Shown in pieces: positions 15 through 59,134 of a stretch of 64,000 nucleotides of DNA. Within the stretch, counting starts at the first letter, position 1; each line of letters opens with the position of its first letter. The notes beneath the pieces were generated by a model. The model was given only the letters and a program-made list of their open reading frames with translations. It did not search any database and had not been told where the DNA came from. Made by a program: the position numbers and the translations under genes. This DNA comes from Shimia aestuarii (lineage in GTDB: Bacteria; Pseudomonadota; Alphaproteobacteria; Rhodobacterales; Rhodobacteraceae), in the NCBI RefSeq assembly GCF_900114635.1, contig NZ_FOTQ01000001.1:992001-1056000 (forward strand), given 5' to 3'.

Positions 15-665
15 ATGGCGGGACAAACCAACATGATCGTTCAGGCGATCCTCGAAGATATCGACCGGGGCGATCTCAACCCCGGCGACAGCCTTGACGA
101 ACAGACACTGGCCCAGCGTCTCGGCGTCTCGCGCACCCCGGTGCGCGAAGCGCTGATCCAGCTGGAAACCTCCGGCCTGATCCTGCGCCTGCCGCGCAAG
201 GGTGCGGTGCTCTTCAAACCCACGCTCGAGGAATTCCTCGCCATTCTCGAAGTCCATGCCAAGCTCGAAGGTCAAGCCGCTGGCCTCGCCGCCCGCCGCC
301 TCTCCGAAAACGGCCAGTCCCACCTCGAAAGCATCGTCACAGCCTGCGAAATCCATGCTTCCACCAAGGGCGATGCAGACCCGGACGGCTATTACCAACT
401 CAACCTCACCTTCCACAAAACCGTGGCCGAAATCGCGGGCAACCCGTTCCTTCTGGACATGATCAAGACCAACGCGCGCAAGCTCATGGCCTATTACCGC
501 GCCCGCTATGCCTACGTCGGCGCCATCGCCACCTCGGCCCGCGAACACCGCGAAATCGCGGACCACATCTTTGCCCGCGACGCCGCCGCCGCCGAAACCG
601 CCATGGCCCGTCACGTGCAATTCGATCAGGTCACGGCCATGGACCTGCTCGCGGCCCTGAGCTGA
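15..665 (+). CDS. GntR family transcriptional regulator (FCD subfamily)
   Basis: DNA-binding regulator of 216 residues. The N-terminal winged helix (about residues 7-70) carries the typical GntR signature: GDSLDE, then LAQRLGVSRTPVREAL and a wing with RKGAVL. The C-terminal half (about 75-210) is all-helical and matches the FCD ligand-binding domain, with the metal/ligand-type pattern FH at about residue 140 and REHREI near 180. Such regulators usually repress nearby catabolic genes until a carboxylate or amine effector binds. The frame stays open upstream of the chosen ATG to the window edge, so the start could lie outside. It is followed by a repeat element and the convergent amidotransferase gene, so it is a candidate regulator of the P450 cassette. 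That link is inference. Confidence 0.88.
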   Translation: MAGQTNMIVQAILEDIDRGDLNPGDSLDEQTLAQRLGVSRTPVREALIQLETSGLILRLPRKGAVLFKPTLEEFLAILEVHAKLEGQAAGLAARRLSENGQSHLESIVTACEIHASTKGDADPDGYYQLNLTFHKTVAEIAGNPFLLDMIKTNARKLMAYYRARYAYVGAIATSAREHREIADHIFARDAAAAETAMARHVQFDQVTAMDLLAALS

Positions 666-670
666 GCCAA

Positions 671-735
671 CTCTTCCTTTTGCCGGAAATATCTCGGGGG
701 AATCGCCGCTCGCGGCGCTGGGAGCAGCGTCCCCT
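671..735 (+). repeat. REP-like intergenic element, copy A
   Basis: AT-rich core TTTTGCCGGAAATA followed by a G run and a small GC hairpin (CGCCG at 704-708 pairing with CGGCG at 713-717). It sits between two convergent genes. The core recurs at 4101-4147, 41321-41376 (inverted) and 46966-47035, so this is one member of a dispersed family that may also act as a terminator. Confidence 0.55.
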
Positions 736-1441
736 ATGCCTTAACAGCCCACTCGAAAAACCCGACGATCTGACGCGCCCAATCTTCCCGATCCGCGCGG
801 TTCTTCAACGATTCCCGCGCCGCTTTCGTCACCTCCGGCCCCACATAATCTGCCGTGAATTCCACCAGATCCGCAATGAACGCATCCGTCATTTCCGGGT
901 GATATTGTGTTGAATAGATATGCCGCCCCTTGAGGTAGCCCCCCACCGGGCACCCCGGTCCGCTTGCCACGGCCTCGATCCCCTCGGGCAAGTCCGCGAC
1001 CTGCTCGATATGGCTGGCATAAACCCCGATCCGCGCTGGTGCCTCGGCCCAAGGCAGCGGCATTTGCGTCACGTCGGCATACCCGTGCACCCAGCCCTCA
1101 GGGTTCCGATCCACGGCCCCGCCCAGCGCCACCGCAATCGCCTGATGCCCGAAACAGGCGCCAAACATGGGAATCTCCCGCCGGTCAATCTCGCGGATCA
1201 ACGCAAACAATTGCCCCACCCACGGCGCCTCATCATGTACCGAGGCCGGGCTTCCGGTGATCATCACCCCGTCAAACGCCCCGATATCCTCGGGAAACAC
1301 CCCATCCTTCACCGGGAACACCGAACAGTCCCAGTCGGGGCGCAGCTCCTTGATCAGAATGGTGAATTTTTCACCATCCTTGGGCCGCGCCTGGGCGAAT
1401 TCCGTCTCATCCGTGTTGGTCATCAGGATCGCGAGATGCAT
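734..1441 (-). CDS. class I glutamine amidotransferase-like protein
   Basis: Cytoplasmic protein of 235 residues with the GATase class I fold. The nucleophile Cys96 lies in ACFGHQ, and the His181/Glu183 pair in QYHPE completes the triad. I start at the ATG at 1441 because the reading frame upstream has no family similarity and runs into the divergent promoter. Proteins of this type hydrolyse glutamine or gamma-glutamyl bonds. In aniline-type amine catabolism a GATase-like partner is encoded beside a glutamine-synthetase-like ligase and is thought to hydrolyse the gamma-glutamyl conjugate. The gene is divergent from the P450-ligase-ferredoxin genes, which supports a similar role here. The substrate is unknown. 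Confidence 0.82.
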   Translation of the reverse strand: MHLAILMTNTDETEFAQARPKDGEKFTILIKELRPDWDCSVFPVKDGVFPEDIGAFDGVMITGSPASVHDEAPWVGQLFALIREIDRREIPMFGACFGHQAIAVALGGAVDRNPEGWVHGYADVTQMPLPWAEAPARIGVYASHIEQVADLPEGIEAVASGPGCPVGGYLKGRHIYSTQYHPEMTDAFIADLVEFTADYVGPEVTKAARESLKNRADREDWARQIVGFFEWAVKA

Positions 1442-1530
1442 GATTGGCCTCTCCAAAAGATTCTTCTTTGCGTATTTATGAAGTCCATATATATACATAA
1501 CAAAGCAAGCAAACAAGGGAGGTGCTTTGC
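1442..1530. promoter_or_regulatory. divergent promoter region of the P450 cassette
   Basis: AT-rich 89-base gap between the divergent amidotransferase and P450 genes, with an alternating stretch TATATATACATA at about 1489-1500. A strong ribosome binding site GGGAGG (1517-1522) sits eight bases before the P450 ATG. Both transcripts must start here. The AT-rich core is a plausible site for the GntR regulator encoded at the left edge, but I cannot define an operator. Confidence 0.45.
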
Positions 1531-2793
1531 ATGACGGTCTGGACTCCAACCGATGACGGCTTTGCCGATCTGACCAGCCACGACACCTTTGCACAAGGCG
1601 CCCCGCACAATACCTTTGCCCGCCTGCGCCGCGAAGACCCGGTCAGCTGGACCGATTACGATCAGGGTCAGGGCTTCTGGTCGATCACCCGCCATCAGGA
1701 CATCACCGAGATGAACCGCAATTTCGCCGTGTTCTCCTCGGCCCGCGGCATTCGCATGGAAGACCAGACCTACGAGGAATACCTCGCGCGCCGCACCTTT
1801 CAGGAAACCGACCCGCCCGAGCACATGAAAACCCGGATCAAGGTCGCCAAGGCGTTTTCCAAACCTGTCGTGGCCGGGTTCGAACAGGACCTGCGCGACC
1901 TCTCCAACCAGATCCTCGACGCCGCCCTCTCCAACACCACGTTCGACGCCACCAAGGACATCGCCCGCCAGCTTCCGATGCTCATGTTGGGCCGCATCCT
2001 CGGCACCCCGGAAAAGGACCTGCCATGGCTCGTGGAAAAGGGTGACGCCCTGATCGCCAACACCGACCCGGATTTCACCGATCACGTGCTCGACCAGATG
2101 ACCACGGATGAATTCCGCATGATGCCCTTCAACTCCCCGGCGGGCGCCGAGCTATACGCCTATGCCAAGGAATTGATGGCCCACAAGAACGCCACCGGCG
2201 ATACCGACGGAGTGCTGCACCTGATCCTGCAACCGGACAAGGACGGCAACACCATCTCCGAAGAGGAATTCCGCAACTTCTTCTGCCTGCTCGTAGCCGC
2301 GGGCAACGACACCACCCGCTACTCGATCGCCGCCGGCATTCAGGCCATGTGCCACCAGCCCGAGCTGCTCTCCCAAATGCAACAAGGCGGCGACGACCTC
2401 TGGGAACTGGCGCCGGACGAGATCATCCGCTGGGCCACCCCTGCCCTCTATTTCCGCCGCACCCTCACGCAAGACTTCGAGGCGCATGGCAAGCAGATGA
2501 AAGAGGGCGACAAGGTCCTTTTCTGGTGGTCCTCGGCCAACCGCGACGACACCGTGTTCGACGACCCGTTCCGCGTCAACTTGATGCGGTCCCCCAACAA
2601 ACACATGTCCTTCGGACAGTCCGGCCCGCATGTCTGCCTAGGCATGTGGCTCGCACGCCTCGAAGTCCGCGTGTTGTTCCAGGAGCTATGCAAACGGCTC
2701 AAAAAGATAGAACCTGATGGCAAACACAAATTCCTGCGTTCCAACTTTGTCGGCGGCATCAAGGAACTGCCCGTCCGCGTTACGCTGCAATAA
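1531..2793 (+). CDS. cytochrome P450
   Basis: Soluble bacterial class I P450 of 420 residues. Visible landmarks are the I-helix oxygen-activation motif AGNDTT (257-262), the K-helix ExxR pair Glu297/Arg300, and the heme loop FGQSGPHVCLG with the thiolate Cys369. The N terminus has no membrane anchor. The ATG at 1531 is preferred over an in-frame GTG nine bases earlier because GGGAGG ends eight bases before it. It is followed after 11 bases by the glutamine-synthetase-like gene and then by a ferredoxin that could deliver its electrons. No ferredoxin reductase is encoded nearby. Substrate is unknown. The context suggests a free or gamma-glutamylated amine. Confidence 0.93.
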   Translation: MTVWTPTDDGFADLTSHDTFAQGAPHNTFARLRREDPVSWTDYDQGQGFWSITRHQDITEMNRNFAVFSSARGIRMEDQTYEEYLARRTFQETDPPEHMKTRIKVAKAFSKPVVAGFEQDLRDLSNQILDAALSNTTFDATKDIARQLPMLMLGRILGTPEKDLPWLVEKGDALIANTDPDFTDHVLDQMTTDEFRMMPFNSPAGAELYAYAKELMAHKNATGDTDGVLHLILQPDKDGNTISEEEFRNFFCLLVAAGNDTTRYSIAAGIQAMCHQPELLSQMQQGGDDLWELAPDEIIRWATPALYFRRTLTQDFEAHGKQMKEGDKVLFWWSSANRDDTVFDDPFRVNLMRSPNKHMSFGQSGPHVCLGMWLARLEVRVLFQELCKRLKKIEPDGKHKFLRSNFVGGIKELPVRVTLQ

Positions 2794-2804
2794 GGATATC
2801 CAAG

Positions 2805-4094
2805 ATGAAAGACCGCCTGCGCGCCGTTTTCTGTGACCACCTGTCGATCATGCGCGGCAAATACCTGCCCGCCTCGAAACTCGCCGACAGCGAAACCCGC
2901 TTCTGCCGCTCCACCTTTGGCGTGCATTACGACAAGGATCTGCTCCCGGCCCCCGGTGCGATGATGATGGACGGCCTGCCAGACATGGAGCTGCGCTGGA
3001 AACATGACGATATCCGCGACAGCTGGGATCCGCATACCAAGATTGTTCTCGGCGATCTTTACGACGACGAAGGCGCGCCGCTCGAGCTTTGCCCGCGCGG
3101 CACCCTGAAACGCGCCGTTGCCAAATGGGAGGCCCGCGGCCTCACCCCCAAGGTCGGCATCGAGCTCGAGGCCTTTGCCATGCAGGCGGATGAGGATGGC
3201 AACCTGCGCCCCTATGATACGCCAGGTGCGGTGGTCTATGGCACCGGCCCGCTCACCGACCCGATGCGCTTCAATGATGCGATCTGGGAAAAGGCGGATG
3301 AGCTGGGCTTCCGCCTCGACATGATCACGGCGGAATTCGACGCTCCACAATTCGAATACACGCTCACTTTTGACAATGCGGTGCAGGCGGTGGACGACAT
3401 CGTTCTCTTCCGCCTGATGGCCAAGGAAATTGCGCTCGAACATGGCATCATCCTGACCTTCATGCCCAAACCCATCGCCGAGGCGGGCGGCTCGGGCATG
3501 CATATCAATTTCTCCTTCTCCGATGTCTCGGGCGGCAACGCGCTTTCGTCCGGCGCGCGCAACATGCCCGAAACCCTCAACGACCTTTCCAAGCAATGCC
3601 TTGCCGGCCTGCTGCACCATCACAAGGCGCTCGCCGGTCTGATCGCCCCTACCGCCAACAGCTACCAGCGGCTGCAACCGGGCTCGCTCTCGGGGTTCTG
3701 GAAGAACTGGGGCGGTGACCACCGCAACGTCACCACCCGCATAAGCTCCGAAGGCGGCCCGAAATCCCGGCTTGAACACCGCATGGCCGACGGTACGGCC
3801 AACCCCTACACCGCCGTCGCCGCCGTTCTGAACGCCTCGCTTCTGGGCGTGGAAAACAACTACCCGCTGCAGCCAATCGAAACCGGTGACGGGTTTGAGA
3901 AAAACGACGCCAAGGAAAGCTGCGCCATGGATCTCAAAGGCGCCGTGGCCGACCTCAAGGCCGACACGGTGCTGGCCGACGCTATCGGTCGCCTGCTGGT
4001 CGACAACCATGTTTTCATGAAAGAGAAAGAAGTCAAAAAGACCAAGGATCTCGAAGGCGACGCCCTGCGCGACTTCTATGTCTACTTCGTCTGA
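2805..4094 (+). CDS. glutamine synthetase family protein (probable gamma-glutamyl amide ligase)
   Basis: Cytoplasmic ATP-dependent ligase of 429 residues with the glutamine synthetase fold. The beta-grasp N domain is followed by a catalytic domain with the metal-binding ELEAF segment, AEFDAPQFEYTL, the GSGMHINFS loop holding the ammonia/amine-site histidine, and NPYTAVAAVL near the end. It diverges from housekeeping GlnA, which is longer and carries an adenylylation loop. Relatives of this length act as gamma-glutamylamine synthetases or in aniline, isopropylamine and ethanolamine use. Its position between a P450 and a ferredoxin, opposite a GATase-like hydrolase, points to glutamylation of an amine before or during oxidation. 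That role is inferred. Confidence 0.85.
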   Translation: MKDRLRAVFCDHLSIMRGKYLPASKLADSETRFCRSTFGVHYDKDLLPAPGAMMMDGLPDMELRWKHDDIRDSWDPHTKIVLGDLYDDEGAPLELCPRGTLKRAVAKWEARGLTPKVGIELEAFAMQADEDGNLRPYDTPGAVVYGTGPLTDPMRFNDAIWEKADELGFRLDMITAEFDAPQFEYTLTFDNAVQAVDDIVLFRLMAKEIALEHGIILTFMPKPIAEAGGSGMHINFSFSDVSGGNALSSGARNMPETLNDLSKQCLAGLLHHHKALAGLIAPTANSYQRLQPGSLSGFWKNWGGDHRNVTTRISSEGGPKSRLEHRMADGTANPYTAVAAVLNASLLGVENNYPLQPIETGDGFEKNDAKESCAMDLKGAVADLKADTVLADAIGRLLVDNHVFMKEKEVKKTKDLEGDALRDFYVYFV

Positions 4095-4556: not shown

Positions 4557-5393
4557 ATGAAAACCGGGATACTGGCCGCATTCATTCTGAGCGTGGCAAC
4601 ACTCGCCCAAGCCGAAGTGTCCGCCGAACGCGGGGAATACCTCGTGCGTGGCCCCGCAGGCTGCGGCAACTGCCACACGCCGCAAGGGCCCAACGGTCCG
4701 GACATGTCCAACGAATTCGGCGGCATGATGGTCGAGAAGAACGACCATTTCGAGGCCTGGGCGGTCAATATCACCCCCGGAGGCCGGGTTGCCGACTGGT
4801 CCGACGCGGAACTGGCCCGCGCCATCCGCGAAGGCATCCGCCCCGACGGAACCGTGATCGGCCCACCCATGCCCATTGGCCTCTATCGCGGTTTGGGAGA
4901 CGATGACCTGATGTCCATCGTCGCCTTCCTGCGCACAGTGCCGCCCAGCGACAACCAGACGCCATTCTCGACCTACAACATCCCGCTGCCGCCCGCCTAC
5001 GGCCCGCCCATTGAAAGCGTGACCGCTCCGCCGCGCGGTGTTTCCGCGGAATACGGCGCCTATCTCGCCGGCCCGGTGGCGCATTGCACCGAATGCCACA
5101 CGACCTTTGGTCCGATGGGTCCGATGTTCGACACCCATCTCGGCGCGGGCGGGTATGAATTCCACGGCCCTTGGGGCGTCTCTGTCGCGCCCAACATCAC
5201 CAGCCATGAAGACGGCCTTGCGGGCTATTCCGATGCCGAACTCAAAGCGATGATCACCACCGGGACACGCCCGGACGGATCGCGCATGAAACCCCCGATG
5301 GGGTATCACCACTACGCCGCCACATCGGACGAGGATATCGACGCCATCATCCTCTACCTGCGGACAATTCCCCCCTTGCCTGATCCGTCCTGA
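4557..5393 (+). CDS. diheme cytochrome c, periplasmic
   Basis: Exported protein of 278 residues. A Sec signal peptide spans about residues 1-19 (ending TLAQA). Two CxxCH heme sites are visible: Cys36/Cys39/His40 (CGNCH) and Cys177/Cys180/His181 (CTECH), each starting a cytochrome c domain of about 120 residues with the internal repeats SDAELARAIREG and SDAELKAMITTG. The architecture resembles the cytochrome subunits of membrane alcohol, gluconate or aldehyde dehydrogenases, but no such dehydrogenase is adjacent. It follows the ferredoxin gene by 73 bases, so co-transcription is possible. Being periplasmic, it is unlikely to serve the cytoplasmic P450 directly. The partner is unknown. Confidence 0.9.
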   Translation: MKTGILAAFILSVATLAQAEVSAERGEYLVRGPAGCGNCHTPQGPNGPDMSNEFGGMMVEKNDHFEAWAVNITPGGRVADWSDAELARAIREGIRPDGTVIGPPMPIGLYRGLGDDDLMSIVAFLRTVPPSDNQTPFSTYNIPLPPAYGPPIESVTAPPRGVSAEYGAYLAGPVAHCTECHTTFGPMGPMFDTHLGAGGYEFHGPWGVSVAPNITSHEDGLAGYSDAELKAMITTGTRPDGSRMKPPMGYHHYAATSDEDIDAIILYLRTIPPLPDPS

Positions 5394-5555: not shown

Positions 5556-6914
5556 TTACCCCGCGGCGGCCGCAAACCCTGCATCCAGCGCCGTCAGGAT
5601 CGTCTGCACATCTTCGCTGGTCAGTACCAGCGGCGGCGACAGGATGATATTCGGCCCCGACACCCGCACCATGGCACCGTTCTGGTACGCGACTTCCTGA
5701 ACGGTACCAATGGTTTGCTTGTCGATCGGCGCCTTGCTGCCCCGATCACTGGCAAGCTCCATCGCCGTCATCAGGCCCTCTCCGCCACGCACGTCGCCAA
5801 TCGCCTCGTACTTGCCCTGAAGGGCCTGCAACCCGGCATAAAGCTCTGCCCCACGCGCCGCCGCGTTGTCCTTGACGTTGAGCCGCAGCGTCTCGGCCAC
5901 ACAAGCCAACGCCGCCGCCGCCCCCACCGGATGACCCGAGTATGTATACCCATGCCCGATCGCCGCCGCACCGCTGGTATCCTTCTCGAACACCTCTGCG
6001 ACGTGCTCGGCAATCATCACTGCGCCAAACGGGAAATACCCGTTTGTTATCGCCTTAGCCGTGCACATCAGGTCCGGCTGCACCCCCCAATGCCGCGACC
6101 CGGTCCAGCTTCCACTGCGCCCAAACGCCGTGATCACCTCATCCGCGATCAACAGGATTCCATGCTTGGTACAGATCTCGCGCACACCCGGCATAAAGCT
6201 TTCATGCGGCACGATTACGCCCCCGGCCCCAAGGATCGGCTCCATGATCATTGCGGCGATTGTGCCTGCGCCTTGGAACGCGATTTCGTCCTCAAGCGCC
6301 TGCAAACAAAGGGCCGACAGCTTCTCGGGATCGGTTTCGTTGAACGGGTTGCGATAGGTGTAAGGTGCGGGAATATGGTAGCACCCGGGCAAAAGCGGCT
6401 CGTACTGGGTGCGGAAATTCGCGTTCCCGTTGACGCTCGCGCCGCCCATATGCGTCCCGTGATAGCCTTTCTTCAGCGACAGGAACTTGGTCCGCCCCGC
6501 CTCGCCCCGCACCTTGTGATACTGCCGCGCCAGACGCAGCGCGGTTTCCACCGAATCCGACCCACCCGAAGTATAGAAAGCCCGTGTCAGGCCATCCGGT
6601 TCATAGAACTCGCGCAGGACCTCGCTCAGCTCAATGATCACGTCATTGGTCGTGCCTCGGAAGGTCGAATAATAGGGCAACACGTCCAGCTGGCGCGCAA
6701 TTGCATCCTTCACCGGCTGGCACGAAAACCCGAGGTTCACGTTCCAGAGGCCGCCGACCCCGTCGACCACCTCATGCCCATCCACATCCCGGATGCGCAC
6801 ACCTTCAGCGCCGGTCACGATGGTGGGCGGGTTGTTCAGACTGTCGGCCGGATGCGCCATCGGATGCCAAAGCGACCGGGCGTTCTTTTCCTTAAGAAAA
6901 TTGCTGTCTTTCAT
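5556..6914 (-). CDS. class III aminotransferase (omega-amino acid:pyruvate type)
   Basis: PLP enzyme of 452 residues, full length for the subgroup II aminotransferases. Visible are the substrate-loop GLWNVNLGF, the cofactor phosphate motif SGGSDSVETALRLAR, LIADEVITAFGRSG with the ring-stacking Asp258, and the Schiff-base Lys287 in TAKAITNGYFPFG. Relatives move amino groups from beta-alanine, taurine or other omega-amino acids to pyruvate. The gene follows the IclR regulator by 15 bases on the same strand and shares a divergent control region with the tct operon, so the set probably handles one amino compound. The exact donor cannot be read from sequence. Confidence 0.88.
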   Translation of the reverse strand: MKDSNFLKEKNARSLWHPMAHPADSLNNPPTIVTGAEGVRIRDVDGHEVVDGVGGLWNVNLGFSCQPVKDAIARQLDVLPYYSTFRGTTNDVIIELSEVLREFYEPDGLTRAFYTSGGSDSVETALRLARQYHKVRGEAGRTKFLSLKKGYHGTHMGGASVNGNANFRTQYEPLLPGCYHIPAPYTYRNPFNETDPEKLSALCLQALEDEIAFQGAGTIAAMIMEPILGAGGVIVPHESFMPGVREICTKHGILLIADEVITAFGRSGSWTGSRHWGVQPDLMCTAKAITNGYFPFGAVMIAEHVAEVFEKDTSGAAAIGHGYTYSGHPVGAAAALACVAETLRLNVKDNAAARGAELYAGLQALQGKYEAIGDVRGGEGLMTAMELASDRGSKAPIDKQTIGTVQEVAYQNGAMVRVSGPNIILSPPLVLTSEDVQTILTALDAGFAAAAG

Positions 6915-6929
6915 GGTTTAACCTCTGTT

Positions 6930-7733
6930 TCAGGCCGCGGGCGCATGCCCGGGCATCGTTTCGAATTTTGTTTTGAAGGAGGCCGGTGGGAACCCGCCAA
7001 GAAGTCGAGTCATCTCCAAAGCGGCGCGCGGTACTTCGGCGCGAATCACGGCACGAAGCGCATCGCTCATCCGGGCGACGGGCGCCGCAACAGCCACCGC
7101 GCCATAACAACGCTGCTGCGCATCAAACACGGGGGCGGCATGCGAATGCACATCCTCTTCAAAACCGCTGACGTTTTCGGCAATGCCCGACCGGCGCACA
7201 TCCTCCAACTGCCCGAGAATCACCTCCGGGTCGGTCACGGACATGGGGGTGCGTCGTTCAAGCGGTTGGGCCAGAACCTGTGTAACAAAGGCCGTGTCGC
7301 TATGCGCCAGAACAGCCAATCCCGAGCTGGTCGAATGGAAGGTGATGACCTCCGCGTCATCCATCGTCACCCGCGTGCCGTGCTGAACACTGTAGCTATA
7401 GGCCAGCGTGCACAACTGGTCGCCCTGCAGGATGGACATATGCGTCGTTTCACCGGTGGCCGCGCTCAGCCGGTCCAGCACCTGCTGGGCCATCTCGCGC
7501 ATGGGCACAGCCGCTTCCCGCAGACTCGCAAGACGCAGGAAAACTGGTCCCAAGCGATAGGCACGCCCCGATCCAACCTGCTCAACGAATCCGTTTTCTG
7601 CCAGTTCAGTGAGCAGACGAAACACCGTCGCCTTGTTCAGCCCGGTCAGCCTCGTCATCTCGGAAAGCCCGATCTCCTGCCGGTCCCGAGAGAAAAATCC
7701 AAGCAAAGACAATGCCTTGGATACTGTTCCCAT
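6930..7733 (-). CDS. IclR family transcriptional regulator
   Basis: Regulator of 267 residues. The N-terminal winged helix (about 1-60) contains SEMTRLTGLNKATVFRLLTEL and GRAYRLGP. The C-terminal effector domain (about 80-250) has the usual GETTHMSI, SSGLAVLA and AAPVFD segments. Tetrameric IclR proteins commonly control divergent catabolic operons through palindromes. It is the first gene of the leftward pair with the aminotransferase and faces tctC across a 171-base gap holding two palindromes. It has 14-20 extra residues at the C terminus rich in Ala and Pro with no recognisable role. Confidence 0.9.
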   Translation of the reverse strand: MGTVSKALSLLGFFSRDRQEIGLSEMTRLTGLNKATVFRLLTELAENGFVEQVGSGRAYRLGPVFLRLASLREAAVPMREMAQQVLDRLSAATGETTHMSILQGDQLCTLAYSYSVQHGTRVTMDDAEVITFHSTSSGLAVLAHSDTAFVTQVLAQPLERRTPMSVTDPEVILGQLEDVRRSGIAENVSGFEEDVHSHAAPVFDAQQRCYGAVAVAAPVARMSDALRAVIRAEVPRAALEMTRLLGGFPPASFKTKFETMPGHAPAA

Positions 7734-7835: not shown

Positions 7836-7904
7836 TCTATTTTCGAACCTTTGGTTTGAATAATGAACCGCACACAAGTGCGATCAGAAAACAGGGAGAC
7901 CAGA

Positions 7905-8846
7905 ATGAAAACGACCCAGATACTCGGCGGCGCCCTTGCGCTTGCCATGACGGCCATGGGCGGCGCAGCCCTTGCCGAATACCCCGAAAAACCCGTCAGC
8001 TTCGTTGTGCCGTGGCCTCCCGGTGATCTCGAAGACGTGCTGACTCGCATGATTGCCGAAGACTTCCAGGCCGAATACGGCGTGGCAGCAGCCGTGGTGA
8101 ATAAACCCGGCGGCGGCGGTGGCCCCTTCCCCGGCGCGATTGGCGTCGCAACGGCGCCGGCTGACGGCTACACCATTGGTTCCTTCGTACCCGCCGTCCC
8201 GGTGATCGGCCACGAAATCGGCATCGACGAACTCGCCGACGAAGTCTTTGAACCGATTGGCATTTTCCTTACCTACCCGTTCGTGATTGCCACTGCAGGA
8301 GACGCACCTTATTCGTCCATGGCCGAGTTGGCCGAGTATGCAAAATCCAACGACGTGGCGCTTGGCCATTTCGGTGATGTGCTGACGCCGACCCAGGTAA
8401 CCAAGGCATTCGCAGTGAATGCCGGTTTTGAATGGGGATCGGATGCGGCCTTTGACGCGCTCGACTGCAACACGCTGGCTTCGGGCGACGCCGATGTGAT
8501 CAACACGACGCTGCAACTGATCCTGCCCTGCCTCGACAGCGTCAAGGTTCTGACCTCGATCACCGGCGAGCGCATTTCTCTGGTGCCGGATGCACCGACC
8601 ATTGGTGAGCTGGACAGCACGCTCGACATCGCTCTTTGGAACGGGCTGTTCGTGCACAAGGACACCCCCCAGGACGCCCGTGACAAGATCGCAGCCGTCG
8701 CGGCGAAAACCGTGATGAGCGACCGCGCTCAGGCCGTAGCGAAGGAAACCGGTGCGTTGGTTTACTGGGCCGATGCCGCCGCGTCGGCCGACATCATCGC
8801 CAAGGACAAGGCGACTGTCGCACACATCGGCAAGCTTCTGGAATAA
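7905..8846 (+). CDS. tctC: tripartite tricarboxylate transporter substrate-binding protein
   Basis: Periplasmic binding protein of 313 residues with a Sec signal peptide (about 1-24, ending GGAALA) followed by YPEKPVSFVVPWPPG, the typical mature start of TctC/Bug proteins. The usual GGxxD loop is replaced by PPGDLEDVLTRM, and a glycine-rich NKPGGGGG follows. The fold and size fit carboxylate capture for the TctAB permease encoded next. The ATG at 7905 is preferred because AGGGAG precedes it. A stronger ribosome site and the hairpin after the gene fit the expected excess of binding protein over permease. Ligand is unknown. The operon suggests an amino or hydroxy acid. Confidence 0.9.
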   Translation: MKTTQILGGALALAMTAMGGAALAEYPEKPVSFVVPWPPGDLEDVLTRMIAEDFQAEYGVAAAVVNKPGGGGGPFPGAIGVATAPADGYTIGSFVPAVPVIGHEIGIDELADEVFEPIGIFLTYPFVIATAGDAPYSSMAELAEYAKSNDVALGHFGDVLTPTQVTKAFAVNAGFEWGSDAAFDALDCNTLASGDADVINTTLQLILPCLDSVKVLTSITGERISLVPDAPTIGELDSTLDIALWNGLFVHKDTPQDARDKIAAVAAKTVMSDRAQAVAKETGALVYWADAAASADIIAKDKATVAHIGKLLE

Positions 8847-8857
8847 AACACCTTTTC

Positions 8858-8887
8858 AGGGCCGGGATTTGAGAAAACCCCGGCCCT
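8858..8887 (+). terminator. intercistronic hairpin between tctC and tctB
   Basis: Perfect 9-bp stem AGGGCCGGG (8858-8866) / CCCGGCCCT (8879-8887) with a 12-base loop, followed by a short pyrimidine stretch. It probably acts as a partial terminator or a 3' end stabiliser giving more tctC than tctBA message. Confidence 0.65.
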
Positions 8888-8911
8888 CTTTGCATCCAAG
8901 GGACCGCCGAC

Positions 8912-9442
8912 ATGAGTTCACTCGAGGAAAAACGCTTCCCCGGCCCGCTACGTGGCCAGTTGATATTTGCCATCGTGTTCTTTGTCGTGGCCCTGCTTCT
9001 GCTGTCCCAGATCGGCGAGCAGACAAAGTGGGTCAAACGGACCAAGTTCTTTGCCCAGCCCCGTTTCTGGCCTGCGGTCGGACTGATCGGCATGGTCGTG
9101 TTCGGAGGGCTGCATCTCTGGAAGCTGCCACGCCGCCGGTTTGACCGGATGGACTACCGCGAATGGCGCATCTGGTTCCTTGCGATTGAATGGGTTGGCT
9201 GGTTCCTGCTCTATGTTCTGCTGGTCCCTATCATCGGCTACCTACCAACAACGATGATCTTCATGCCCATTATCACTTGGCGCCTTGGCTATCGTGACAA
9301 GCGCATGCTGTGGGTGGCGGCGACCTTCGGAACACTCGTCGTGGTGCTGTTCAAATCCTTGCTTCAGGTCAAGATCCCCGGTGGCCTGATCTATGAATAC
9401 CTGCCCAGCGCGCTGCGCAGCTTCTTTATCCTGAACCTGTAA
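8912..9442 (+). CDS. tctB: tripartite tricarboxylate transporter small permease subunit
   Basis: Membrane protein of 176 residues with about four hydrophobic segments (residues 17-35, 49-66, 84-115 as a hairpin, 130-150), the layout of TctB. It carries no conserved catalytic residues. In characterised systems the small subunit pairs with the 12-helix TctA. It lies between tctC and tctA, separated from tctA by nine bases, which fixes the assignment more than sequence does. Confidence 0.85.
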   Translation: MSSLEEKRFPGPLRGQLIFAIVFFVVALLLLSQIGEQTKWVKRTKFFAQPRFWPAVGLIGMVVFGGLHLWKLPRRRFDRMDYREWRIWFLAIEWVGWFLLYVLLVPIIGYLPTTMIFMPIITWRLGYRDKRMLWVAATFGTLVVVLFKSLLQVKIPGGLIYEYLPSALRSFFILNL

Positions 9443-9451
9443 AGGCGCGCC

Positions 9452-11071
9452 ATGGACCTCATTCTTTCCTCCATCGACATTCTTGCCCGCTGGGACGTTC
9501 TGCTTGCCCTGCTTGCGGGATCCGTGGGCGGCGTTCTGATTGGCGCTATCCCCGGTGTCGGCCCGGCCGTTGCCATTGCGATCCTGCTGCCTGCGACGTT
9601 TTCGATGGACCCGATCGTCGGTCTGACCGTGCTACTTGGCATCTATGGCAGCTCGATGTATGGCGGCTCGATCCCCGCGATCCTGATCAACACCCCCGGC
9701 ACGGCCGTCAACGCCCTGACCACCTATGACGGCTACCCCATGACAGCGCGCGGCGAAGCCCGCCGTGCCCTGTCACTGGCCTATTCCGCATCCTTTTTCG
9801 GCGGTGTTTTCTCGGTAGTCTGCCTGATCCTGTTTGCCCCGATCCTTGCAAAGATCGCCCCCATGTTCGGCAGCCGCGAGATCTTTCTCGCCGCGCTCCT
9901 TGGCATCATCCTTGTGGTCATTGCCCATCGCGGCCAATCGTTGATCGCCGCCGCGCTGGCCTGTTTCGGCATCTTCCTCAACACAGTTGGACTCGAAGCG
10001 GTCAAATACTCTAAACGCTACACATTTGATCAGTCATTCCTGTCTTCCGGCGTCAACCTGATCGTGGTCGTACTCGGCCTTTTCGCCCTGTCCCAGGCCT
10101 TCTATCTCTTACAGGGCGAGGACGAAAAAACCCGCATCACAAAACTGCGCGGCGGGCTGTTCCAAGGCTTACGGGAACTGGCCCGCCACCCCCGTGTCGC
10201 AGGCGTTTCGGGCACGTTTGGCGTCCTCATGGGCATGATCCCCGGCGTCGGTGAGTTCACGGCACAGTTCCTGAGTTACACCTACGCCCAGAAAACCTCA
10301 AAACGCCCGCAGGATTTCGGCCACGGCTCTTCCGAGGGCCTGATTGCTGCCGAAACGGCCAACAACGCAGTACCGGCCGCCGCCATGGTTCCGCTGCTTG
10401 CGCTTGGCATCCCGGGCGAAGCGCTCACGGCGATGATGCTCAGCGTATTCTACGTGCACAACGTGGTGCCCGGCCCGCAACTGTTCCAGAACCAGATGGA
10501 CTTTGTCGTCGCGCTCTATATTGCGCTTCTTCTGCTCAACGTGCTGGTGCTGGTTTTTCTGCTCTTTGCCACAAACCACCTGATCAAGGTCGTAAAAATC
10601 CCCAACCGTTTCCTCGGCGCCTGCATCCTCGTGCTCAGCTTTGTCGGGGTCTATTCCTTGCGCAACTCGGTTACGGATTGCCTGATTGCCTCGGCATTCG
10701 GCATCTTCGGATTTGTCCTGAAACGCCTGTCACTTCCGGCAGTCCCGATCATCCTCGGCATGGTTCTGGGCGGCATCATGGAGGTGAAGCTACGCGCCGG
10801 CATGGCACGGGTCAAAACTCCGTTCGACTTCATTGATCGCCCCATCGCCATGATCCTGTTCCTGATGATTGTGGGCGTTCTCATTCTGCATTTCATACGC
10901 GTCCTGAAGGACCGCAAAGACCTCAAGGAGGCCAAATGGTCGACCAAGCACGCATCGACGAACTTCGGCATGCACCTCTTCCGCCGCAAAAGCTTTTTGT
11001 TGCGGGAACGTGGCAGGAAGGTTCGGGAGAAACACTTGAAGTACAATCCCCGATCGACGGACAAACGCTGA
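9452..11071 (+). CDS. tctA: tripartite tricarboxylate transporter large permease subunit
   Basis: Polytopic inner-membrane protein of 539 residues with the TctA signatures GAIPGVGPAVAIAILLP near residue 32 and its inverted-repeat partner MGMIPGVGEFTAQFLSYTYA near 258, plus LALGIPGEALTAMML. These mark the ion-coupled carboxylate carriers. The last transmembrane helix ends near residue 485. The remaining tail is highly basic and is encoded by the same DNA as the start of the aldehyde dehydrogenase gene (136-base overlap). This tail is unusual and may result from loss of an earlier stop codon. Confidence 0.9.
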   Translation: MDLILSSIDILARWDVLLALLAGSVGGVLIGAIPGVGPAVAIAILLPATFSMDPIVGLTVLLGIYGSSMYGGSIPAILINTPGTAVNALTTYDGYPMTARGEARRALSLAYSASFFGGVFSVVCLILFAPILAKIAPMFGSREIFLAALLGIILVVIAHRGQSLIAAALACFGIFLNTVGLEAVKYSKRYTFDQSFLSSGVNLIVVVLGLFALSQAFYLLQGEDEKTRITKLRGGLFQGLRELARHPRVAGVSGTFGVLMGMIPGVGEFTAQFLSYTYAQKTSKRPQDFGHGSSEGLIAAETANNAVPAAAMVPLLALGIPGEALTAMMLSVFYVHNVVPGPQLFQNQMDFVVALYIALLLLNVLVLVFLLFATNHLIKVVKIPNRFLGACILVLSFVGVYSLRNSVTDCLIASAFGIFGFVLKRLSLPAVPIILGMVLGGIMEVKLRAGMARVKTPFDFIDRPIAMILFLMIVGVLILHFIRVLKDRKDLKEAKWSTKHASTNFGMHLFRRKSFLLRERGRKVREKHLKYNPRSTDKR

Positions 11072-12420
11072 CAACGCTTGCGGGCGCTTCGACATCCGAT
11101 GTGGATCGCGCTGTTGCCGCCGCCCGCTCGGCTTTTGAAGATGGCCGCTGGTCGCGCATTGCCCCTGCCGCGCGCAAAAGGGTTCTGCACCGGCTGGCGG
11201 ACCTGATTGAGAAACACGCGCTGGAACTGGCGGTACTGGGTGTGCGTGACAATGGCACCGAACTTAATATGGCGCTCAAGGCGGAGCCTGGATCAGCCGC
11301 GGGCACATTCCGTTACTACGCTGAAGCGATAGACAAGATATACGGTGAGATCGCCCCAACGGCGCCTGGAACTCTGGGCCTCGTCCACAAGGAACCCGTG
11401 GGCGTGGTCGGTGCCATTGTGCCCTGGAATTTCCCGCTGATGATCGGCGCGTGGAAGCTGGCCCCGGCCTTGGCTGCAGGCAACTCCGTTGTGCTCAAGC
11501 CCGCCGAAACTGCGTCGCTTTCGCTTCTGAAACTGGCCGAACTGGCCGCCGAAGCCGGGGTGCCTGAAGGAGTTCTCAACGTGGTGACCGGCTCTGGCGC
11601 CGTCGCGGGTGAAGCCCTCGCCATGTCGATGGATGTCGATGTGCTGGTCTTCACCGGCTCCGGCCCGGTGGGGCGCCGCCTTTTGGAATACTCCGCCCGG
11701 TCCAATCTCAAGCGGGTCTATCTGGAGCTTGGGGGAAAGTCCCCCAATATCGTTTTTGCCGACGCCCCGGACCTCGAAGAGGCTGCCATGGTGTCTGCCG
11801 GGGGGATTTTCCGAAACTCGGGACAGGTCTGTGTCGCCGGGTCGCGTCTTCTGGTCGAAGAGAGCATTCATGACACCTTTGTCGAACGCGTCGCGCATCA
11901 TGCCCGTCAACTCAAGGTTGGCGATCCGCTTGACCTCACGACCAATGTCGGGGCCGTAAACTCCCTGCGACAGTTGGAGGGCAACCTTGGCTTCATCGAC
12001 AGTGCCCGCAGCGAGGGCAACACCATCGCGCTTGGCGGCAACCGCATCCTTGAGGAAACCGGTGGCTATTACATGGAACCCACCATTGTCACCGATGTGG
12101 GGCCGCAAGACCGGATCGCGCGGAACGAGGTCTTCGGCCCGGTACTGAGCGTGCAGACCTTCGAAACCGACGCCGAGGCCCTCGCCCTTGCCAATGGCAC
12201 CGATTATGGTCTTGCCGCCGGAGTCTGGACCAGCAATCTCAGCCGCGCGCACAACATGGTTGCGGGCATCCGGTCGGGCGTGGTGCACGTGAACACTTAC
12301 GGAGGCGCAGACGCGACCGTGCCGCTGGGGGGGATGAAGCAATCGGGCAACGGGCACGACAAGTCCCTGCATGCGATGGACAAATACCTCGACCTGAAAA
12401 CCGCCTGGATCAAGCTATGA
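10936..12420 (+). CDS. NAD(P)-dependent aldehyde dehydrogenase
   Basis: Enzyme of 494 residues, full length for the ALDH superfamily. Seen are PWNFPLMIGAWKLAPALAAG (cofactor site), the general base Glu264 in LELGGKSP, and the nucleophile Cys299 in SGQVCVAGSR. It most resembles the broad aldehyde/amino-aldehyde dehydrogenase group. The start at 10936 has a strong AAGGAGG at 10924-10930, inside the tctA frame. The next gene overlaps its stop codon by four bases. In this operon it would oxidise the aldehyde released by the phospholyase-like enzyme encoded next. That substrate is inferred. Confidence 0.92.
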   Translation: MVDQARIDELRHAPLPPQKLFVAGTWQEGSGETLEVQSPIDGQTLTTLAGASTSDVDRAVAAARSAFEDGRWSRIAPAARKRVLHRLADLIEKHALELAVLGVRDNGTELNMALKAEPGSAAGTFRYYAEAIDKIYGEIAPTAPGTLGLVHKEPVGVVGAIVPWNFPLMIGAWKLAPALAAGNSVVLKPAETASLSLLKLAELAAEAGVPEGVLNVVTGSGAVAGEALAMSMDVDVLVFTGSGPVGRRLLEYSARSNLKRVYLELGGKSPNIVFADAPDLEEAAMVSAGGIFRNSGQVCVAGSRLLVEESIHDTFVERVAHHARQLKVGDPLDLTTNVGAVNSLRQLEGNLGFIDSARSEGNTIALGGNRILEETGGYYMEPTIVTDVGPQDRIARNEVFGPVLSVQTFETDAEALALANGTDYGLAAGVWTSNLSRAHNMVAGIRSGVVHVNTYGGADATVPLGGMKQSGNGHDKSLHAMDKYLDLKTAWIKL

Positions 12421-13709
12421 CCGCGACGCAAACACTGGTTGACCGCCGCGCGAAACTGCTCGGCCCCAATGTCAGTACATTCTACGACGACCCCGTTCAT
12501 ATCGTGCGCGGCGAAGGCGTTTGGGTCTGGGACGCAGACGGGCGACAGTACCTCGATTGCTATAACAACGTCCCCCATGTGGGGCACTGCCATCCGAAAG
12601 TTGTCGAGGCAATCTGCAAACAGGCCTCCACCCTCAATACCCACACACGCTATCTGCACGAAGGCATTCTGGACTATGTCGAGGACCTGACCGACACATT
12701 CGACGACCCGCTCAACACCGCCATCATGACCTGCACGGGGTCCGAGGCAAACGACATTGCTCTGCGCATGGCGCAGGGCATCACCGGCAACACCGGTGTG
12801 ATTGCCACCGATCACACCTATCACGGCAATACCATGGCGGTGTCGCAACTCTCATGCACCAATCCGCCACCCGATCGCTGGAACAATGTCGCCTTTGTCC
12901 CAGCACCTGACAGCTATCGCCCCTTGGGCGGCGAAGGTGGACAGGCCCACGCGCAAGCTTTTGCCGCAGAAATCGAGCGCGCCATTGCGGAGCTTCAGGA
13001 GCGCGGGCATCAACTGTCGGCCCTCATTATTTGTCCCTACTTCGCCAATGAAGGTTTCCCAACACTGGAAAAGGGCTTTCTACGGCCTGCGATTGACGCC
13101 GTGCGCAAGGCGGGGGGCATCATCATCGCTGACGAAGTCCAGCCCGGTTTTGGCCGTCTCGGCACTGATTTCTGGGGGCACCAGAAGGCAGGGTTCCTGC
13201 CTGATGTCGTCGCCTTGGGCAAACCCATGGCGAACGGACACCCGGTTGGCGGCGTCGTCACCAGCCCTGAAATCATGGCGGCATTCCGGAAGAACTTTCG
13301 ATATTTCAACACCTTTGGCGGCAACCCCGTTTCTGCCGCCGCCGCCCGGGCAACTTTGCGTATCGTGCACGACGAAGGCCTGATGGAAAACGCGCGCGCC
13401 GTCGGCGACTATGCCCGCGACGGGTTGCGCAAATTGGCGGAAACCCACTCCTGCATAGGGGATGTGCGTGGTTCGGGATTGTTCTTCGGCGCTGAATTGG
13501 TCCTCGACCGAGAGTCGCGCGCACCTGCCACAGCCTTCACCAAACAAATTGCTAACGCGATGCGCCGCAAAGGCGTTCTGCTGAACTTTCTTGGCATCCA
13601 CTATAATGCTCTCAAAATCCGCCCGCCGCTTCCGTTTTCACGAGAGAACGCGGATCTGATGCTGGAGCGTCTGGACGAGGCGCTGACCGAAACGCCGCTT
13701 GCTCCATGA
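12417..13709 (+). CDS. class III PLP enzyme of the phosphoamine phospho-lyase group
   Basis: PLP enzyme of 430 residues. It has the aminotransferase III scaffold, with GSEANDIALRMAQ, IIADEVQPGFGRLG and the Schiff-base Lys269 in ALGKPMANGHPVGG. Several stretches closely match ethanolamine-phosphate and phosphohydroxylysine phospho-lyases (human ETNPPL/PHYKPL): YLDCYNNVPHVGHCHP near residue 41, LNTHTRYLH near 75, and the GKPMxNGHP lysine motif. Those enzymes eliminate phosphate and ammonia from an O-phosphorylated amino alcohol to give an aldehyde. The next gene encodes an APH-type kinase, as expected for the phosphorylation step, and the previous one an aldehyde dehydrogenase. I prefer phospho-lyase over transaminase. 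The exact substrate is open. Confidence 0.82.
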   Translation: MTATQTLVDRRAKLLGPNVSTFYDDPVHIVRGEGVWVWDADGRQYLDCYNNVPHVGHCHPKVVEAICKQASTLNTHTRYLHEGILDYVEDLTDTFDDPLNTAIMTCTGSEANDIALRMAQGITGNTGVIATDHTYHGNTMAVSQLSCTNPPPDRWNNVAFVPAPDSYRPLGGEGGQAHAQAFAAEIERAIAELQERGHQLSALIICPYFANEGFPTLEKGFLRPAIDAVRKAGGIIIADEVQPGFGRLGTDFWGHQKAGFLPDVVALGKPMANGHPVGGVVTSPEIMAAFRKNFRYFNTFGGNPVSAAAARATLRIVHDEGLMENARAVGDYARDGLRKLAETHSCIGDVRGSGLFFGAELVLDRESRAPATAFTKQIANAMRRKGVLLNFLGIHYNALKIRPPLPFSRENADLMLERLDEALTETPLAP

Positions 13710-14644
13710 CCGATCCCGTCGTGCAACAGGCCCTGCCTCTCTGGGGTTTGCAGGGGGCAGACTTCTCACTGCTCGCGCAACGCGAGAACCATGTCTACGC
13801 TGTGCGACAGGGCACAACGAAATACGCACTACGCCTGCACCGCCCGGGTTATCGCACGACGCCCGAACTGGTCTCGGAACTCGATTGGATGATGTACCTG
13901 TCCCGTCAAGGCCTGCACGTCCCTGCACCAATCCCGACCCACGACGGCTCATACCTGGCGAAACTTGGGACCATCCACGCCAGCCTGTTGACATGGCTCG
14001 ACGGCACGCCAATCGGAGAGGGCTCGGAGATTAGTGAGGGTTCCCCCACACAGATCGCCCGGATGGTGGGGCGAGAAATGGCGCGCCTTCACGATCTCAC
14101 CGACAACTGGGGCTGTCCCAATGCCTTTGTCCGCCCCAACTGGACCGCGGACGCCCTATTAGGGGAAAATCCTCTTTGGGGGCGCTTCTGGGAACACCCG
14201 CACCTTTCACCAGACCAAAAAAACCTCCTGCTGAAGACCCGCTCCCGCGCCTCTCGAGACCTTCATGCTCTGGAAGCCGATGAAGGCCTGATCCATGCGG
14301 ACCTTTTGACCGAGAACATCCTGCTGTGGAACGATGGTCTTGGCATTCTCGACTTTGACGATTGCGCGATCGGATACCGCTCTTTCGAACTTGCGACATT
14401 TCTGCTGCGCTACCTCGAACGCCGGGATTTTCCCGATTTGCGCAACGCCTTGCTAGACGGATACGCCGCGCGTCGTGCCATCTCGGCGGAGGAGCTTGAT
14501 CTCATGCTTCTATTGCGCGCCTTGACTTACGTGGGCTGGATCATCCCGCGCCTGAATGAACCCGGCGGCGAGACCCGCTCGAAAAGAATGATCGCCAGGG
14601 CCACGGGCTTGGCCAATACATACCTGGAAGGGAGACCATCATGA
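13706..14644 (+). CDS. APH/choline-kinase-like phosphotransferase, probable amino-alcohol kinase
   Basis: Kinase-fold protein of 312 residues. The N lobe contains ENHVYAVRQGTTKYALRLHRPG with the ATP-binding Lys. The C lobe has the Brenner motif HADLLTEN with catalytic Asp199 and the metal-binding ILDFDD (Asp216). It overlaps the phospholyase-like gene by four bases (ATGA), so the two are probably translationally coupled. Hydroxylysine kinase and bacterial amino-alcohol kinases belong to this family and pair with phospho-lyases. The pairing supports phosphorylation of an amino alcohol. Homoserine or aminoglycoside kinase activity is less likely in this setting. Confidence 0.83.
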   Translation: MTDPVVQQALPLWGLQGADFSLLAQRENHVYAVRQGTTKYALRLHRPGYRTTPELVSELDWMMYLSRQGLHVPAPIPTHDGSYLAKLGTIHASLLTWLDGTPIGEGSEISEGSPTQIARMVGREMARLHDLTDNWGCPNAFVRPNWTADALLGENPLWGRFWEHPHLSPDQKNLLLKTRSRASRDLHALEADEGLIHADLLTENILLWNDGLGILDFDDCAIGYRSFELATFLLRYLERRDFPDLRNALLDGYAARRAISAEELDLMLLLRALTYVGWIIPRLNEPGGETRSKRMIARATGLANTYLEGRPS

Positions 14645-15873
14645 GCCAGGAAAAAACCATTCTCGTTGTCGGCACCTACGATACCAAGGACGATGAATTG
14701 AACTATATGTGCGACTGTATCCGGAGTCAGGGCGGCAACGTGCTGTCGATGGATGTGAGCGTGCTGGGCGATCCCTCGCAGCCGACGGATTATTCGAAAC
14801 ATGATGTCGCCGAAGAGGGCGACAGCTCGATCCAGGCCGCAATCGACTCGGGCGACGAAAACATCGCCATGCAGATCATGGCACAAGGCGCGTCGCTCCT
14901 CGCTCTGCGGCTCTATCACGAAGGCAAGGTGGATGGCGTTGTCGTGCTTGGCGGCACCATGGGGACCGACCTGGCGCTGGACGTGTGCCAGGCGCTGCCG
15001 CTAGGTGTCCCGAAGTACGTGGTCTCGACGGTAAGCTTCTCACAGCTTCTGCCGCCGGAACGACTTGCGGCGGATATACAGATGATCCTGTGGGCCGGAG
15101 GTCTCTACGGGCTTAACTCGGTCTGCAAATCGTCACTGTCACAGGCGGCGGGTGCCGTTTTGGGCGCGGCCCGCGCCGTGGAAAAACCCAAAGGGGACAA
15201 GCCCTTGATCGGCATGACTTCGTTTGGAAAGACCATTCTACACTATATGGTCACACTCAAACCCGCGCTGGAAGAGCGTGGGTTTGAGGTGGCCGTATTC
15301 CACGCCACAGGAATGGGCGGGAGGGCCTTTGAGTCCTTGGCTGCAGAGGGGGCCTTTGCCTGTGTCATGGATTTTGCGACGCAGGAGGTGGGCAACCACC
15401 TGATGGGTGGACTGTCTGCCGGGGCCGACCGGCTGACAAATGCCGGGGCCAGCGCCACTCCGCAGATCGTGGCCCCTGCCTGTTATGACCTGGTTGACCT
15501 TGTGGGCTGGAAACCGCTCCCCGACCAGATGAGCGAAAAGCCCGCGCATGACCACAACAGGCTTTTGAAGTCTGTGGTGCTGGATAACGAAGAGCGCCGC
15601 GCCGTGGCGCGGGCGCTTTGCGAGAAACTGGCCACGGCCAAGGGGCCGACGAGCTTCATAATGCCCAAGGGCGGTTGCAACGAATGGGATAGGCCCGGTG
15701 CTGACCTTCACGACGCGGCGGGTCTTGCCGCCTTTGTGGAAGAGATCGAAGCCGCGATGCCCGAAACGGTCGATTACGTGTCGCTAGACGGACATATCAA
15801 TGACGCCCAATTCTGTGAAACGGTCCTGCGTATCTTTGACGGTTGGGTCGCAGATGGCACGGTGAAACGCTGA
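14641..15873 (+). CDS. Tm-1-like ATP-binding domain protein (UPF0261)
   Basis: Cytoplasmic protein of 410 residues that fits the UPF0261/Tm-1 family. The N-terminal Rossmann-like domain begins ILVVGTYDTKDDELNY and contains VVVLGGTMGTDLALDV. A second domain starts near residue 185 with LIGMTSFGKTILH and includes FHATGMGGRAFE and MPKGGCNEWDRPGADLHD. The plant relative Tm-1 binds ATP and blocks a viral replicase, but the bacterial role is not established. It is the last gene of the tct operon, overlapping the kinase gene by four bases, so it probably takes part in the same catabolism. Confidence 0.82.
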   Translation: MSQEKTILVVGTYDTKDDELNYMCDCIRSQGGNVLSMDVSVLGDPSQPTDYSKHDVAEEGDSSIQAAIDSGDENIAMQIMAQGASLLALRLYHEGKVDGVVVLGGTMGTDLALDVCQALPLGVPKYVVSTVSFSQLLPPERLAADIQMILWAGGLYGLNSVCKSSLSQAAGAVLGAARAVEKPKGDKPLIGMTSFGKTILHYMVTLKPALEERGFEVAVFHATGMGGRAFESLAAEGAFACVMDFATQEVGNHLMGGLSAGADRLTNAGASATPQIVAPACYDLVDLVGWKPLPDQMSEKPAHDHNRLLKSVVLDNEERRAVARALCEKLATAKGPTSFIMPKGGCNEWDRPGADLHDAAGLAAFVEEIEAAMPETVDYVSLDGHINDAQFCETVLRIFDGWVADGTVKR

Positions 15874-59132: not shown

Positions 59133-59134
59133 GA

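Follow-up and report, generated by a model that had tools for sequence, protein, structure and literature searches.

What does a bacterium degrade with a small-molecule kinase, a class III pyridoxal phosphate (PLP) enzyme and an aldehyde dehydrogenase encoded in one operon? The question is raised by a locus of Shimia aestuarii within a 64,000-nucleotide stretch of contig NZ_FOTQ01000001.1 (positions 992,001 to 1,056,000; hereafter the window), for which an earlier note, made from the sequence alone, had proposed the import and degradation of a small amino alcohol. The three open reading frames lie, as described there, on the plus strand with overlaps of four bases; the gene of a Tm-1-like protein follows with the same overlap, and those of a Tct-type transporter precede them from position 7863. 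It is on the substrate that our reading departs from the note: we propose, with a probability of roughly two in three, that the operon degrades beta-hydroxylated aromatic ethylamines of the octopamine, noradrenaline or phenylethanolamine type, since the neighborhood that recurs around it is one of homoprotocatechuate (hpa) catabolism, joined in some loci by an aromatic amino acid decarboxylase. The gene families, their order and their linkage are established by the analysis; from these we infer every substrate named below.

The PLP enzyme carries an aminotransferase class III domain, as an ordinary transaminase would. Compared with solved structures, however, it is closest to the phospho-lyase A1RDF1 (PDB 5g4i, 1.9e-113) and to human ETNPPL (6tor, 1.8e-106), and these lead the next family, dialkylglycine decarboxylase (8e-55), by more than 50 orders of magnitude in E-value. 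In a phylogenetic tree of 88 rows, a long branch with 99/99 support parts the phospho-lyase rows, including ETNPPL and A1RDF1, from the transaminase rows, of which there are three in this midpoint-rooted tree with several long branches. Both sequence stretches quoted in the earlier note are present (NNVPHVGHCHP at nt 12564-12596 and GKPMANGHP at nt 13218-13244); the motifs common to A1RDF1 and ETNPPL (NNVxHVGHxxP, GKPMxNGHP and LKx(R/K)PP) are kept in the window enzyme and absent in AT3, a second class III enzyme encoded in the window. Structural matches, tree and motifs agree, and the phylogenetic check that the note had called for places the predicted enzyme clearly in the phospho-lyase family; with a kinase gene in 47 of the 48 loci that carry a phospho-lyase of the window type, a true transaminase was rejected as a very improbable identification. 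The report on the enzyme PbfA (PMC8154272) names as documented class III lyases, besides PbfA itself, only the ethanolamine-phosphate phospho-lyase and one close relative.

Phosphorylation by the kinase followed by elimination through the phospho-lyase is well supported as the predicted mechanism, because the PLP enzyme falls among the phospho-lyases and is accompanied by an APH-type kinase in 47/48 window-type loci and in 17/17 loci of the paralogue described below. The chemistry suggested in the note, from kinase and phospho-lyase to an aldehyde and on to an acid, would fit this grouping and the presence of kinase, lyase and aldehyde dehydrogenase in one operon. Among 20 more distant loci the kinase was recognized in only five; some of these 20 loci have a kinase that is fused to the lyase or has diverged beyond the cut applied. 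Such fusions are seen at L045:8124-11120 and L046:8216-11182, each encoding a protein of some 1000 residues that begins like a kinase and ends as a phospho-lyase; in the tree this form groups with human ETNPPL.

The window-type operon is an accessory, elaborated version of a kinase/lyase pair. The source genome (G000) holds a second phospho-lyase, 63% identical to that of the window, with only a kinase beside it; this core type (60-65% identical) occurs in 23 of 24 other genomes of the genus that were searched, five of which also carry a window-type copy, and one genome (G016) has neither. None of the 17 loci of the core pair has an hpa gene, a decarboxylase, AT3, the aldehyde dehydrogenase, Tct or the Tm-1-like gene, and its context thus offers no clue to its substrate. 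The fuller set of genes around the window-type enzyme (AT3, an IclR-type regulator, TctC-B-A, aldehyde dehydrogenase, phospho-lyase, APH kinase and Tm-1-like protein; hereafter the module) is kept in this order in 6/6 fetched relatives with a 71-88% identical phospho-lyase, a conservation that would not be expected by chance. The megaplasmid of Ruegeria pomeroyi DSS-3 has the block from aldehyde dehydrogenase to Tm-1-like protein together with AT3, without Tct and IclR.

Immediately outside the window, on the upstream side of the contig (stretch L139), lie hpaF, hpaD, hpaG, hpaH and hpaI, the last ending 18 bases before the window; these genes make up the meta-cleavage pathway for 3,4-dihydroxyphenylacetate (homoprotocatechuate). 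HpaD exceeds the TIGR02295 equivalog cut-off (413 vs. 321 bits) and all five proteins show 40-79% identity to annotated homoprotocatechuate proteins of Rhizobium, so that a cluster for homoprotocatechuate ring cleavage adjoins the region of the amine operon; an extra hpaE/hpaD(Fe) pair, each member over its cut-off, is found on contig C6. The distance between phospho-lyase and hpaD is about 16 kb in the source genome and 14-24 kb in three others (G005, G009 and G014). Relatives of the kinase/lyase pair adjoin hpa clusters, or lie within them, in other Proteobacteria as well. In Rhizobium the module stands between HpaB/flavin reductase genes and hpaR with further hpa genes, in Lutimaribacter and Thalassovita hpaF-E-D come after it, and in locus L161 it also adjoins hpa genes; in L174, L175 and L176, picked because the proximity was already known, most of these genes fall within 20 kb. 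Two loci associate the kinase and phospho-lyase alone with this pathway: in L158 an HpaB-like gene (30% identical), APH, phospho-lyase and hpaI-H-G-D-E-F share one strand, in a cluster where no AT3, aldehyde dehydrogenase or Tct was recognized, and in L083 a decarboxylase, hpaI, phospho-lyase and APH run together. The solved phospho-lyase itself comes from such a setting. A1RDF1 (PDB 5g4i/5g4j) is AAur_pTC20101, encoded on plasmid pTC2 of the actinobacterium Paenarthrobacter aurescens TC1, as a 103-residue piece of 5g4i matches it exactly; like the window its locus combines phospho-lyase (42% identical), kinase (35%) and aldehyde dehydrogenase, here beside phenylacetaldehyde dehydrogenase, HpaI and a hydratase, with hpaE 11 kb off. 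Unlike the window, it has no orthologue of AT3, Tct, IclR or Tm-1 among the 34 features listed, and a TetR regulator and an amino-acid permease instead.

Counted over all window-type loci, ten of which are shorter than 17 kb, an hpa gene is present in the stretch examined in 12/48. Leaving out the three loci that were picked for proximity gives 10/45, and 9/45 if L082 is also discounted, since its hpa flag, which the Rhizobium proteins did not confirm, depends on a single HpaD(Fe)-like gene (55% identical). The contrast with the core clade (0/17) gives p=0.017 unpruned. At the level of whole genomes, a survey of 295 members of the family, nearly all of different genera and with each protein searched at its own E-value cut, found the window-type phospho-lyase in 13 genomes, P450 in 48, HpaD in 90 and the decarboxylase in 137. 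The phospho-lyase co-occurs with HpaD in 10/13 genomes (expected 4.0, p=6e-4), with P450 in 12 (expected 2.1) and with the decarboxylase in 13, and P450 co-occurs with HpaD in 41 (expected 14.6); within 20 kb on one contig, many genomes being fragmented, the phospho-lyase meets HpaD in two, P450 in three and the decarboxylase in one. Within the genus, HpaD is found in 5/6 genomes with the module and in 7/19 without (p=0.06).

By PDB comparison, the decarboxylase encoded near some modules belongs to the DOPA/aromatic type; for the Shinella protein the top NCBIfam model is diaminobutyrate decarboxylase, far below its cut-off, and the PDB comparison again leads to DOPA/aromatic decarboxylases. 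It is present in 5/48 window-type loci (3/45 without the picked loci), and lies far from the window in the source genome (C18:517012). No more than 3 kb separates it from HpaD in 34 of the 78 family genomes that have both, and in L172 and L173 it is embedded between hpa genes. From the type of the decarboxylase and its proximity to HpaD it follows that the hpa pathway is often linked to aromatic amines in the family surveyed; together, the hpa and decarboxylase neighborhoods point to beta-hydroxylated aromatic amines as the substrates of the operon.

In the proposed pathway, TctABC would import the amine, and the APH-type kinase, established as to family, would phosphorylate the side-chain hydroxyl of ArCH(OH)CH2NH2. 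The phospho-lyase would then eliminate phosphate to leave an enamine that loses ammonia, yielding the arylacetaldehyde ArCH2CHO, which the aldehyde dehydrogenase would oxidize to the arylacetate ArCH2COOH; both enzymes are assigned to their families, with the substrates predicted. The adjacent hpa enzymes, hpaD by family model and the others by similarity, could open the ring of 3,4-dihydroxyphenylacetate. AT3 may lead amines of the type ArCH2CH2NH2 (tyramine, dopamine) to the same aldehyde. N-methylated amines (synephrine, adrenaline) were considered and appear unlikely as direct substrates, by the reasoning that the enzyme must form an aldimine.

Several observations weigh against this pathway. 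No hpa gene is found in the stretch examined in 36/48 window-type loci, the pruned contrast with the core clade reaches only p=0.044, and 3/13 genomes with the module lack HpaD at the threshold used. On the tree, whose unlabelled rows are known only with limited flanks, the hpa label is no more clustered than in shuffles; labelling its 14 hpa-linked rows requires 13 changes, of which no fewer than 11 are forced, and hpa linkage has therefore been gained or lost many times, a scatter that repeated loss could produce as well as repeated gain. The aldehyde dehydrogenase is closest to KauB/PuuC, an aliphatic type, and not to phenylacetaldehyde dehydrogenases (StyD); the closest solved relatives are named phospho-lyase (A1RDF1) and ethanolamine-phosphate phospho-lyase (ETNPPL), and both are known for phosphoethanolamine. 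These enzyme relationships, and the core pair without any aromatic context, are what would be seen if a small aliphatic amino alcohol (ethanolamine or 1-amino-2-propanol) or hydroxylysine were phosphorylated, eliminated and oxidized, the hpa neighbors serving AT3 and the aldehyde dehydrogenase or being coincidental. We regard this as unlikely, as hpa or decarboxylase genes adjoin the phospho-lyase and kinase also where AT3, aldehyde dehydrogenase and Tct are not part of the cluster (L158, L083), and again around A1RDF1.

The transporter bears on a further alternative, in which the substrate is a carboxylated hydroxy-amine, such as 4-amino-3-hydroxybutyrate or a beta-hydroxy aromatic amino acid, and Tct carries an ordinary carboxylate. 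Tct transporters and the solved binding proteins are indeed named for carboxylates; one of the matches is a terephthalate-binding protein. In the window and in 29/29 module rows (24 distinct loci), nevertheless, PPGDLED stands where three solved TctC homologs have AGGxxD, the canonical carboxylate loop, and in Rhizobium, Shinella and Paenarthrobacter the neighboring transporter is an amino-acid permease-type protein, which makes a carboxylated substrate appear quite improbable. The altered, more acidic loop would fit a cationic ligand, and import of the amine by Tct would be plausible. Among 15 TctC genes of nine genomes, 10 show the ordinary GG loop, whereas PPGDLED occurs in four and PPGGEED in one; three of the four PPGDLED genes are in the module, and the fourth is in a cluster of Tm-1-like protein, aldehyde dehydrogenase, Tct, IclR, HAD and AT3 without a phospho-lyase (L157, G036:C8:83000-102900), in a genome without a phospho-lyase match at E 1e-80. 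The sibling with PPGGEED (L156, G000:C19:4000-23900, TctC at 10246) has different neighbors and possibly another cation as its ligand.

The 4-hydroxyphenylacetate 3-hydroxylase HpaB was not found in the source genome, either by protein or by the HpaB_N model; among 18 window-type genomes HpaB was found in none and P450 in 17. The window contains a block of genes for a glutamine synthetase (GS)-like ligase, an oxygenase and an amidotransferase-like hydrolase (Gln-synt_C, p450 and GATase), which is the layout of the isopropylamine (Ipu; PMC6776027) and of the aniline and 1-naphthylamine glutamylation systems (PMC11335346), with the difference that the window block co-occurs with hpa genes. This P450 block may supply a ring hydroxyl by way of gamma-glutamyl amines. 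The idea remains conjecture, because HpaB is rare in genomes with HpaD anyway (11/80; 80 of the 90 HpaD genomes were examined), P450 and HpaB do not clearly exclude each other, and the P450 is CYP125-like; P450 as a simple replacement of HpaB was rejected, as HpaB is present in 4/41 genomes with P450 and in 7/39 without (p=0.34). Alaninol, delivered by an Ipu-like route, was likewise discarded as the direct substrate: by chemical reasoning, elimination from 2-amino-1-propanol phosphate would give acetone and not an aldehyde, and the window proteins appear distant from the Ipu proteins of strain TC1 (P450 24% identical; GS 27% identical to IpuC over 415 residues). A single supercluster, with transamination for tyramine and dopamine, kinase and phospho-lyase for octopamine and noradrenaline, a P450 acting on gamma-glutamyl amides in place of HpaBC, and a Tct transporter refitted for a cation, is a tentative extension that we consider possible and rather doubtful as a whole.

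Coordinates and assignments of the operon, its neighbors and the second kinase/lyase pair; window positions unless another stretch is named.
Feature	Position	Strand	Evidence
GntR-type regulator, between hpaI (outside the window) and the P450 block	15-665	+	NCBIfam models of the GntR family, none reaching its cut-off
Class I amidotransferase-like hydrolase (associated block), start uncertain	734-1495	-	GATase 3.1e-18
Cytochrome P450 (associated block)	1522-2793	+	p450 1.2e-17; best PDB 8vxi CYP125MRCA 2.8e-93
GS-like ligase, possible gamma-glutamyl-amine synthetase (associated block)	2805-4094	+	Gln-synt_C 6.5e-74; type III GS and gamma-glutamylputrescine synthetase NCBIfam models, both below cut-off
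AT3, second class III enzyme, predicted omega-transaminase	5556-6914	-, divergent	Aminotran_3 9.6e-92; NCBIfam PRK07481 740 bits vs. cut-off 575 (model without named function); best PDB 5lh9 omega transaminase 1.5e-131
IclR-type regulator	6930-7733	-, divergent from operon	IclR_C and HTH_IclR
TctC periplasmic binding protein	7863-8846	+	Pfam TctC 6.2e-15; ligand loop PPGDLED nt 8016-8036
TctB-like small membrane subunit	8912-9442	+	position; kept in 6/6 relatives; Ruegeria conchae orthologue annotated TctB
TctA-like permease	9452-11071	+	open reading frame; Ruegeria conchae orthologue annotated TTT permease
Aldehyde dehydrogenase, KauB/PuuC-like	10936-12420	+	Pfam Aldedh 1.2e-163; best PDB 6b4r KauB 6.7e-161; best NCBIfam model PuuC, below cut-off
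Class III PLP phospho-lyase	12417-13709	+	Aminotran_3 1e-72; PDB matches, tree, motifs
APH-type small-molecule kinase	13706-14644	+	Pfam APH 1e-28; motifs HADLLTEN nt 14294-14317 and LDFDD nt 14348-14362
Tm-1-like UPF0261 protein	14641-15873	+	UPF0261 N and C domains; NCBIfam PRK02399.1-4, 637 bits vs. cut-off 556
Core-type kinase and phospho-lyase pair, second pair in source genome	L031 (G000:C18:1299500-1319000), 7948-10214		

The TctA reading frame runs 136 bases into the aldehyde dehydrogenase gene. The latter starts with ATGG, by which a TctA stop is avoided, and this start is conserved in the aldehyde dehydrogenase orthologues of Shimia and several relatives. A HAD-type hydrolase adjoins AT3 and the Tm-1-like gene in 9/48 window-type loci (e.g., L122:7970-8620). 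Two CxxCH heme-binding motifs at 4557-5393 mark a protein that is cytochrome c-like by eye and that some relatives also encode next to AT3 or the GS-like gene, and two adjacent minus-strand open reading frames at 57939-59974 have starts that resemble kynureninase and tryptophan 2,3-dioxygenase, also by eye. A scan for promoters and terminators gave a result no better than shuffles.

The route by kinase, phospho-lyase and aldehyde dehydrogenase for small amino alcohols and hydroxylysine belongs to older biochemistry, with ETNPPL and PHYKPL as its human lyases; the window shares the three enzyme types, and its phospho-lyase falls in one clade with ETNPPL, but the gene context in Shimia is aromatic. 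The tyramine/dopamine catabolon of Pseudomonas putida U has reportedly been studied, as has the use of phenylethanolamine by A. aurescens TC1. In the catabolon, too, aromatic amines of biogenic origin are converted to 3,4-dihydroxyphenylacetate, whose ring is then cleaved by the hpa pathway; Shimia differs in having a kinase and a phospho-lyase, predicted to act on amines with a beta-hydroxyl, and in that no HpaB was found in its genome. Among the literature matches listed, which consist of titles and the starts of abstracts with most subscription papers outside, neither this operon nor a kinase/phospho-lyase route for aromatic amines is described.

Beta-hydroxylated aromatic amines such as octopamine and noradrenaline are signals of animals and plants. 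If the proposed pathway is correct, a physiological role could be assigned to the bacterial relatives of ETNPPL, and the position of A1RDF1 among arylacetate genes would be explained; its genes could then also serve as markers in bacteria from the sea and from soil, one of which is the model strain Ruegeria pomeroyi DSS-3.

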